Shown piece by piece: positions 31,137 through 33,979 of a DNA stretch of 60,090 bases (the first letter of the stretch is position 1; the number at the start of each line of letters is the position of its first letter). The position numbers and the translations under genes are program-made. Origin of the DNA: Firmicutes bacterium HGW-Firmicutes-15 (GTDB lineage Bacteria; Bacillota; Syntrophomonadia; Syntrophomonadales; Syntrophomonadaceae). The notes beneath the pieces were generated by a model. It saw nothing but the letters and a program-made list of their open reading frames with translations, searched no databases and was not told the DNA's origin. The DNA is taken from positions 1-60,090 of the forward strand of contig PHAA01000022.1 of the NCBI GenBank assembly GCA_002840245.1. The letters run 5' to 3'.

Positions 31137-31292
31137 CTTGGGGACTTCAATATTGTTCGAGGTGGACAAAGCTGAAAAGAGGGTTAGCCTGGAGAAAATT
31201 ATTAATAAAGGCCTAAAACCATAACGTAATACTGTACAGTTATGCGTAGATAATATATACTTATCAAAATCGAAAAAAGTAAGGTGTATCTT

Positions 31293-31760
31293 GTGAGAGA
31301 GTTAAAGGATTACAAGATTGGAGATCTAGCTAAATTAGCAGGGGTTAGCAAACGAACCATCGATTACTATACTAATTTGGGTCTCCTCAAGCCTATCCGT
31401 TTGGATAACAACTACAGATACTTTTCGGGGGAAAGCCTGGTGAAACTTAATCTGATCCGGGAAATGAAAAACAGCCGGTTTACCCTGGAGGAGATTAAAG
31501 AACATTTAGACTTGATATATGATAACAGCGAAAACGTTAATAAGGTAGAAGGAGAAACCAAAGCTTTCTCCACAGGTTCAATCAAAGATCACTTGAGCCA
31601 TATGCAAAGCCAATTATTATTACTTCAACCTATAGTAAATACCGTCGACCAAAATAGTGTGGAGCATACAACTGTTATAACCAAGCAGTTTCTTTTTGAA
31701 AGCTTGGTTTTCATCCAGGAGCTAATGGTTTTGATTAAAGAATTAGGACATGTATTATAA
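31293..31760 (+). CDS. MerR family transcriptional regulator
   Basis: The N-terminal 70 residues form the MerR winged helix: YKIGDLAKLAGVSKRTIDYY, TNLGLLKPIRLDNNYRYFSG and LNLIREMKNSRFTLEEIKEH. A helical linker follows, then a short C-terminus (LFESLVFIQELMVLIKELGH) without Cys or a TipAS domain, so the inducer is not obvious. GTG 31293 is preferred over GTG 31284 because AAGG lies 8 bases before it. A 10-base palindrome, ACTGTACAGT (31231-31240), upstream could be an operator. It precedes the zinc-ribbon/kinase pair on the same strand and may control it. Confidence 0.85.
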   Translation: MRELKDYKIGDLAKLAGVSKRTIDYYTNLGLLKPIRLDNNYRYFSGESLVKLNLIREMKNSRFTLEEIKEHLDLIYDNSENVNKVEGETKAFSTGSIKDHLSHMQSQLLLLQPIVNTVDQNSVEHTTVITKQFLFESLVFIQELMVLIKELGHVL

Positions 31761-31834: not shown

Positions 31835-32122
31835 ATGAATTGTCCAAATTGTCAGAAGCAAATAGAACCCGGCTTTAAGCTCTGTCCCTATTGCGGAACA
31901 GAGACCAATATAAGCACCGGTTGCCCATCCTGTAAAAAAGAGGTGAAGCCCGACTGGATGCTCTGCCCCTATTGTGGAACAACCCTGTCCCAAAGAGGTT
32001 TTCAGCAACATATCCCAAAACCTTTCTCCCCTCCAGTTTATGAGAAAGGTCATGGACATCACGGAGGAAGTTCAGGGAAGCATCGTAAAAAGGGATTTTT
32101 GGGAGGATTCTTCTCCTCTTGA
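31835..32122 (+). CDS. Double zinc ribbon protein
   Basis: Two zinc ribbons occupy residues 1-50: CPNCQKQIEPGFKLCPYCG and CPSCKKEVKPDWMLCPYCG, each with two CxxC pairs. A low-complexity His/Gly/Ser linker (KGHGHHGGSSGKHRKKG) and the ending GFLGGFFSS follow. ATG 31835 has GAGGAGGG 8 bases upstream, a better start than ATG 31805. The stop TGA at 32120 is followed in the same frame by a complete protein-kinase N-lobe with no usual start codon, so the two could be one product interrupted by TGA or two coupled genes. Such ribbons typically mediate protein or nucleic-acid contacts. Confidence 0.78.
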   Translation: MNCPNCQKQIEPGFKLCPYCGTETNISTGCPSCKKEVKPDWMLCPYCGTTLSQRGFQQHIPKPFSPPVYEKGHGHHGGSSGKHRKKGFLGGFFSS

Positions 32123-32137
32123 GAGGATAATTTATCT

Positions 32138-32941
32138 ATAGGCGAATATGCAGTTGATGCATATTGGGGAAAGGGAAGCTTTGGATCAGTTTTCCGAGCA
32201 TGGCGTAACGGCAAGGTTTTTGCATTAAAGGTTTTTAATAAGCGAGATGAGAATGAAGAGCTGACCTTGGCAAGATTTCAACTAGAAGCCGAGATACTAA
32301 GAAGTATAAAGAGCGTGAGGGTACCGACGTTTATTGAAGCATTTTCCATGGGGGAAAAGCACATTATCGTTCAGGAGTTAATCGAAGGCAGCCCACTAAG
32401 CAACTTTATCGCTAACGCCTACCGCTTTGACGAGAGAAAGGTAAAAATAATTATTGCTCAACTCCTTATCATCCTTCAAGACCTGCATAATCCTGAACAT
32501 ATGGAGAATGCTATAGTCCACCGAGATTTAAGGCTGTCCAACCTGCTGATAAAAAATGGTGATGTTTATCTGATCGATTTCGGATTTGCACGATATCTTA
32601 ATCCTAAATCGGGTATTGTCTTACCAGACCCTGAAGTCAGCTATGATAGGGAGGAAACTAAACAGCCTGTTGAGCCAGCAATCCGGAGAAATCCGGGAGT
32701 ATACACCTACAGGCTGCTGCGTAGAGAAATATCTCCCCGAAGTGATCTATTTGGCGTTGGGGTGGTGGCCATTGATCTTTTTACTAACTGGGTGGAGGAT
32801 GAAGCCTTGTTTACACAACCATGGGAAAAGGTCTTACCAATATCCAGCCAATTCATTGGGTTTCTACAAAGGCTGTTAAGCAGAGATAATCACGGATTCA
32901 GTAGTGTCAGTGAGGCTCTGAATGAACTGAAAAATATCTAG
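32138..32941 (+). CDS. Serine/threonine protein kinase without normal start codon
   Basis: The translated frame gives a full eukaryotic-type kinase. The Gly-rich loop is WGKGSFGSVF, the ATP-binding Lys lies in VFALKVFNKR, the helix-C Glu in FQLEAEILRSI, the catalytic loop is VHRDLRLSNLLI (HRD) and LIDFGFARYL contains DFG. The frame is open back to the TGA that ends the zinc ribbon gene (32120-32122). No ATG, GTG or TTG occurs in it before a TTG at 32267, which would cut off the whole ATP-binding lobe. An ATA at 32138 lies exactly where a kinase would begin (GEYAVDAYW) and has GAGAGG about 11 bases upstream. Options are ATA initiation, TGA read-through from the zinc ribbon gene, or a recent start-codon or nonsense mutation. 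About 267 residues. Confidence 0.65.
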   Translation: MGEYAVDAYWGKGSFGSVFRAWRNGKVFALKVFNKRDENEELTLARFQLEAEILRSIKSVRVPTFIEAFSMGEKHIIVQELIEGSPLSNFIANAYRFDERKVKIIIAQLLIILQDLHNPEHMENAIVHRDLRLSNLLIKNGDVYLIDFGFARYLNPKSGIVLPDPEVSYDREETKQPVEPAIRRNPGVYTYRLLRREISPRSDLFGVGVVAIDLFTNWVEDEALFTQPWEKVLPISSQFIGFLQRLLSRDNHGFSSVSEALNELKNI

Positions 32942-33073: not shown

Positions 33074-33979
33074 GTGGGGAAGGTGTGGCGTCTATTGGAA
33101 ACTATGGATAGGAAGGCGAAGGTGGCCTTATTATCAGTCTGTTCCAACACGGCTTTGATCATTTTGAAGACAATTGCTGGAATAATGAGTGGTTCAGTGA
33201 GCATTCTCTCTGAAGCTATTCATTCTAGTATGGATTTAATTGCTTCTATAGTTGCGTTTTTATCTGTAAGAATGTCATCACAGCCAGCTGATGAAGAACA
33301 CCCTTATGGACACGGAAAAATCGAGAATATTTCTGGTCTGGTTGAGGGATTGTTGATATTTGTAGCGGCATTTTTGATTATAAAAGAAGCTGTGCATAAG
33401 ATTAGCCAGCCTTCGGCTATTGATCAAGCTGCCATAGCCATAGGTGTAATGTTAATATCTGCGTTGGTAAATACTATCGTATCCAGGATTCTATATAAAG
33501 TAGCAAAAGAAGAGGATTCATTAGCCCTTGAAGCGGATGCACTTCACCTCAAAACGGACGTTTACACATCACTGGGTGTAGGAATTGGGATTCTGTTGAT
33601 TAAACTTACAGGAAACAATGTCCTTGACCCTGTAGTGGCCATTCTGGTTGCTTTATTAATTATTAAGGAGTCATGGAATCTATGCAGTAATGCGTTTAAG
33701 CCCCTACTAGATAATAGGCTTTCTGATCAGGAAGAGGAAATGATTCGGGAGGCTATCAGAAAATACAATGGCATAATTATCGATTTCCACGAGCTGCGCA
33801 CGAGGAAATCAGGCAATATGAAATATGTTGATTTTGATTTAATAGTAGATAAGGATATTTCGGTTGAGGAATCTCACGCTCTAAGCACGAAGATAGTGAG
33901 AGATTTGGAAGCAATCTTAAGTAATGTCAACGTGAGCATTTATGTAAAACCAGGTAACATGCCAAACCCGGCAGAATAG
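33074..33979 (+). CDS. Cation diffusion facilitator family transporter
   Basis: This dimeric proton-coupled exporter of Zn2+, Mn2+, Fe2+ or similar has about six helices in residues 10-205. Metal ligands are visible as EAIHSSMDLIAS (H..D in helix 2) and ADALHLKTDVYTS (H..D in helix 5). EEHPYGHGKIENIS is the conserved helix 2-3 loop. The C-terminal cytosolic domain (residues 210-300) carries FHELRTRKSGNMKYVDFDLI and ESHALSTKIVRDLE. Length 301 is typical. The start is unclear: GTG 33074 is reported, and ATG 33104 (MDRKAKVALL) is equally possible. The substrate metal cannot be told; the ferritin-like gene downstream hints at iron or manganese, which is inference. Confidence 0.9.
   Translation: MGKVWRLLETMDRKAKVALLSVCSNTALIILKTIAGIMSGSVSILSEAIHSSMDLIASIVAFLSVRMSSQPADEEHPYGHGKIENISGLVEGLLIFVAAFLIIKEAVHKISQPSAIDQAAIAIGVMLISALVNTIVSRILYKVAKEEDSLALEADALHLKTDVYTSLGVGIGILLIKLTGNNVLDPVVAILVALLIIKESWNLCSNAFKPLLDNRLSDQEEEMIREAIRKYNGIIIDFHELRTRKSGNMKYVDFDLIVDKDISVEESHALSTKIVRDLEAILSNVNVSIYVKPGNMPNPAE

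Follow-up and report, generated by a model that had tools for sequence, protein, structure and literature searches.

A conserved in-frame UGA joins a double zinc ribbon to a predicted Hanks-type kinase in a probable case of bacterial stop codon readthrough

The locus described here lies on the forward strand of contig PHAA01000022.1 from Firmicutes bacterium HGW-Firmicutes-15, within the 60,090-nucleotide stretch of DNA that was analyzed as a whole and is referred to as the window. An open reading frame for a double zinc ribbon protein (31835–32122) begins with ATG at 31835 and is terminated by TGA at 32120–32122. Its 95-residue product (31835–32119) is matched by the Pfam zinc ribbon families Zn_ribbon_3/DZR with E ~1e-12 and includes a His/Gly/Pro-rich linker as well as a basic tail, KHRKKGFLGGFFSS, that is conserved across 20 genomes. 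Past the TGA, the same frame begins with EDNLSIGEYAVDAYWGKGSFGSVF and remains open for 272 codons up to a TAG at 32939–32941, a length whose chance probability is approximately (61/64)^272, or roughly 2e-6. This downstream frame (32123–32941) encodes a Ser/Thr kinase displaying the elements GKGSFG, ALK, E151, HRDLRLSN, and DFG, an assignment drawn from translation, alignment, an AlphaFold2 kinase fold, and a Pfam Pkinase match over 32123–32938 (E = 7e-29). Eight codons (32123–32146) separate the UGA from the first conserved Tyr of the kinase; they contain no standard start and are conserved as protein. The earliest in-frame ATG, GTG, or TTG after the stop is the TTG at 32267; both the P-loop and the ATP-binding Lys precede it, and no working kinase would therefore be obtained from that start. 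ORF, translation, and Pfam data agree with the preliminary description, according to which the ribbon gene ends at TGA 32120 and its frame runs on into a kinase, and the reported lack of any ATG/GTG/TTG before 32267 in the kinase frame was confirmed in the window.

The window locus is neighbored by genes for a MerR-type regulator and a cation-efflux (CDF) transporter (31284–31760 and 33074–33979), a setting that may link the zinc ribbon to metals. These neighbors were not seen in the other orthologue flanks inspected, and by-eye inspection of the orthologue flanks revealed no conserved neighbor genes, the flanking genes differing between loci.

In the orthologue alignment, residues G112, G114, K132, E151, D231, N236, and D248 are invariant. 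Displaying a P-loop, the VAIK Lys, the C-helix Glu, the HRD Asp with its Asn, and the DFG Asp, the downstream domain is predicted to be a Hanks-type Ser/Thr kinase. AlphaFold2 yielded a confident kinase from approximately residue 101, an unstructured linker, and a low-confidence short helix (residues 88–93) in the basic tail; this domain layout places the UGA, which corresponds to residue 96 of the fusion, at a domain boundary. Structure searching retrieved eukaryotic and bacterial Hanks kinases only. The best NCBIfam match of the window kinase (32123–32938) is the antiphage MADS6 kinase NF047741, at 71 bits and confined to the kinase domain. Membership in the MADS6 family was rejected, given that the curated cut-off, 460 bits, is far above this score.

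When named genomes were scanned, Peptococcaceae bacterium BRH_c8a (L022) proved to carry an orthologue and Pelotomaculum sp. UBA1371 (L023) a C-terminal remnant; profile searches of several hundred genomes retrieved 18 more intact loci. Together with the window and L022, these constitute 20 orthologues (the window plus 19 further) in 20 genomes that belong to one phylum and represent 8 families and 4 classes; the 20 sequences are mutually related, and counts over them are not independent. The orthologues are ~40–52% identical in protein sequence to the window and are laid out alike, with a double zinc ribbon, a basic tail reading G(F/L)LGxxFSS (FS in one), the UGA, 7–8 codons, and an in-frame Hanks-type Ser/Thr kinase. 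The first conserved kinase Tyr is codon +9 after the UGA; four related genomes have it at +8. Searches elsewhere in the class to which the window belongs yielded no orthologue, and the kinase orthologue is absent from the searchable other species of its genus, where only a PrkC-like paralogue was observed. Decayed or fragmentary kinase copies are present in Pelotomaculum sp. UBA1371 (L023, 5000–5300) and in two other genomes (L059 and L078), and the ribbon–kinase gene seems to be often lost.

The internal stop is UGA in all 20 orthologues, where it occupies the same alignment column and the frame is kept across it. The terminator of the kinase itself varies (TAA in 9, TGA in 6, and TAG in 5 of the 20), and of 222 long open frames from the same loci, which were used as background, just 65 end in UGA. 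On the kinase tree, which is poorly resolved for the window, L036, L037, and L038 and from which no order of divergence is claimed, the internal stop changed 0 times among the 20 and once when the divergent locus L038 was added, the corresponding counts being 10 for the terminal stop, 8 for codon −1, and 5 for codon +1. An A is found directly 3′ of the internal UGA in 19 of the 20 orthologues versus 23 of the 65 background UGAs. The lack of a sense codon at the site throughout the 20 genomes points to a need for the short product or for a low ratio of the two products. Retention of the stop against both sense codons and other stops, with L038 as the exception, is the sequence pattern that programmed readthrough would be expected to leave.

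Selection was also evident directly past the stop. In comparisons confined to five groups of close relatives, pN/pS amounts to 0.168 for codons +1 to +5, 0.166 for codons +1 to +8, and 0.174 for kinase codons +9 to +30, with 0.229 for the last 12 codons upstream of the internal UGA. Differences within codons +1 to +8 are distributed over codon positions 1/2/3 as 17/10/58, and the two other frames of the same stretch give ratios of 2.2 and 1.6. Because purifying selection at the protein level acts on codons +1 to +5 as strongly as on the kinase, translation appears to continue directly from UGA+1, and two explanations offered in the preliminary description, initiation at an ATA codon and a recent mutation, are therefore rejected. 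No standard start codon occurs at +1 to +12 after the UGA in any of the 20 orthologues; four of them possess one at +13 or +14, and no near-cognate start is common to all 20 at any position. A conserved in-frame stop followed by an open frame without an independent start, together with selection immediately beyond that stop, argues for readthrough. The remaining explanation in that description, read-through of the TGA to give a short and a fused product, is supported by the UGA in 20/20 orthologues, the kept frame, and the selection from UGA+1. Relatives with ATG or GTG at the ATA codon, or lacking the TGA, were looked for and numbered 0 of the 20 orthologues, leaving read-through unrefuted.

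One competing explanation posits termination at the UGA and restart on a nearby non-AUG codon (ATA/ATT/ATC at +6), which would release a free kinase. An Ile codon is indeed present at +6 in 12 of 20 orthologues and a near-cognate codon at +11 in 11 of 20, SD-like purines follow the UGA in some orthologues (GAGAGGA in the window), and the more distant kinases L004, L039, and L040 use a real ATG overlapping a small ORF, as in termination–reinitiation. The codon at the ATA position, however, is ATA in the window only (ATA 1, ATT 4, ATC 7, CTC 2, CTT 1, TCA 1, and deletion 4; n = 20), with neither an Ile nor a near-cognate codon at +6 in 8 of the 20 and none universal at any position. In addition, the protein sequence encoded by the five codons preceding it is conserved, at a pN/pS equal to that of the kinase, and the reinitiating lineages retain an ATG in another frame. 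A shared frame and a UGA are not required for reinitiation, yet both are kept in 20/20, and we regard restart as unlikely. Alternatively, a nonsense mutation might have left the kinase as a dead remnant, or the UGA might be a sequencing error, as could be suspected from the absence or decay of the kinase in many relatives (fragments in L023, L059, and L078) and from the lack of an orthologue elsewhere in the window's class. The occurrence of the same UGA in 20 assemblies spanning 8 families, the invariant catalytic residues, and a pN/pS of ~0.17 past the stop render this explanation hardly credible, and the same conservation across families speaks against a recent mutation; decay or error is refuted for the family and could still hold in a single genome. 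Stop-hopping or bypassing was also rejected, as TCN invariably occupies codon −1, codon +1 is AAA, AAG, AGG, ACG, or GAG, and the take-off and landing codons therefore do not match. Frameshifting in the 20 was discarded on the basis of the identical frame on either side of the UGA.

Decoding of the UGA as selenocysteine by SelB and tRNA-Sec, whereby the ribbon–kinase would be a selenoprotein or a kinase under selenium control, is a serious rival because 19 of the 20 orthologue genomes encode SelB. Furthermore, tRNA-Sec was confirmed in orthologue genomes where tested, and the window displays a SECIS-like hairpin ~30 nt past the UGA with a folding energy of −11.6 kcal/mol, which was matched by 0 of 30 shuffles. 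This hairpin (32144–32170; AATATGC-AGTTGAT-GCATATT) meets the bacterial SECIS rules, and a hairpin in L068 shares its GUUGA loop, which most other orthologues lack. Against selenocysteine, SelB was found in 80 of 80 good genomes of the best-sampled class, and its presence is therefore uninformative. Genome G111 (L037) possesses no SelB over the cut-off and a tRNA-Ser as its best tRNA-Sec match, yet it keeps both the UGA and an intact kinase. The bSECIS rules (PMC13188914) were passed by 7 of 20 orthologues versus 9.6 expected from shuffles; the positive control, E. coli fdhF, passes, and a SECIS control sought near selB in the orthologue genomes was not found. RNAalifold detected no structure common to the orthologues, Cys replaces the UGA position in 0 of 20 orthologues, and the position falls in a linker devoid of a redox motif. 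We give selenocysteine very little credence here, and as a general mechanism it is unlikely.

Divergent relatives connect ribbon or leader and kinase differently. In L038 (1440–1510), the same ribbon and kinase are present, with UAA as the ribbon stop and the kinase in the −1 frame; a U8 run immediately precedes the stop, and a TTG follows it within a few bases. The L038 kinase could be produced by a −1 shift (candidate site GTTTTTTTTCC) or by TTG reinitiation, in what is a single genome. The distant kinases at L004:1244–1480, L039:1240–1480, and L040:1240–1480 follow a small basic His/Gly-rich ORF that lacks a zinc ribbon, is read in another frame, and terminates 7 nt beyond the kinase ATG. 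This arrangement of coupled overlapping genes is ordinary reinitiation. A small basic leader protein translated immediately ahead of the kinase thus recurs more widely in related ARRANGEMENTS (L038, L004, L039, and L040), and the in-frame UGA is the special solution of the 20-orthologue clade.

The interpretation favored by the sequence comparisons is that ribbon and kinase probably constitute one gene with an evolutionarily maintained leaky UGA, at which readthrough by a near-cognate tRNA would afford much ribbon protein and little ribbon–kinase fusion. The ribbon AUG is well placed, with a clear Shine-Dalgarno sequence in nearly all orthologues. Ribosomes would start at this AUG, and the majority would terminate at the UGA to release a double zinc ribbon protein of 90–108 residues. 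A minority would misread the UGA via a near-cognate tRNA, most likely tRNA-Trp with insertion of Trp, and go on in frame, yielding a zinc ribbon–linker–kinase fusion of about 350–390 residues. The stop would thereby hold kinase output at a small and constant proportion of that of the ribbon protein, and the kinase would arrive already joined to the ribbon and basic tail. That the decoder is a near-cognate tRNA, that Trp is the residue inserted, and that a low kinase-to-ribbon ratio is the purpose are our inferences. Stimulatory RNA 3′ of the stop is present in some readthrough cases and not in all, and is not strictly defining. No conserved structure (RNAalifold z near 0) and no Rfam match was found in the loci, the matches in the window being at chance level only; any control of efficiency would therefore reside in the short context or act in trans. 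UGA is the leakiest stop, and UGA followed by A is a leakier context in E. coli (PMC10959953). Natural UGA leakage reaches 6% in a B. subtilis prfB+ reporter (PMC7918605) and about 1–2% in E. coli, where it occurs with Trp (~2%) and is slightly higher before A (PMC8954436, PMC10959953). As a tentative and rather doubtful extension, the UGA may act as a regulatory sensor, with kinase output set by termination at the UGA through RF2 level, tRNA-Trp state, or ribosome accuracy.

Readthrough at a UGA followed by A, as observed here, gives rise to A1 from the Qβ coat gene. Moloney MuLV gag-pol, cited in PMC5009743, similarly employs a leaky stop to generate a short and an in-frame fused product. 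Unlike viral readthrough, the present case involves a bacterial chromosomal signaling kinase conserved across classes, and no pseudoknot or 3′ element was found. The bacterial cellular gene for RF2 (prfB) is also recoded at an in-frame UGA, with output coupled to termination efficiency, but through a programmed +1 frameshift, whereas the ribbon–kinase frame is unchanged; no organism is known to have swapped the RF2 frameshift for in-frame readthrough (PMC5009743). Purifying selection around the stop is likewise shared with in-frame stops of bacterial orthologues, which are mostly young, with 71% of pairs free of mismatches nearby and a higher dN/dS, and among which UGAs are usually short-lived (PMC7918605). 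In contrast, the ribbon–kinase UGA persists at ~40–52% protein identity with a pN/pS of ~0.17. Bacterial selenoproteins resemble the locus in that an internal UGA occurs where the organism possesses SelB and tRNA-Sec, but the ribbon–kinase lacks a SECIS signal, a Cys homologue, and a redox site, and is kept in a genome without a Sec system. Termination–reinitiation pairs (PMC6728339), such as L004, L039, and L040, also place a small basic ORF before a related kinase; in these pairs the ATG overlaps the stop in another frame, whereas the UGA family possesses neither a start nor a frame change.

No prior report of the ribbon–kinase locus was found in the open-access literature. Selected readthrough is well documented in viruses and animals, few long-conserved bacterial chromosomal cases are known, and the ribbon–kinase locus offers a clean test case for bacterial readthrough. 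Relatives with a start–stop overlap (L004), and perhaps a frameshift (L038), make it possible to compare naturally occurring means by which a protein ratio can be fixed. An annotation that ends at the UGA, or that calls the kinase a start-less pseudogene, would miss a signaling protein in an entire group of anaerobes. If the sensor reading is true, this kinase would be switched on by falling translation fidelity, and the locus would represent long-conserved regulatory stop codon readthrough in a bacterial chromosomal gene.
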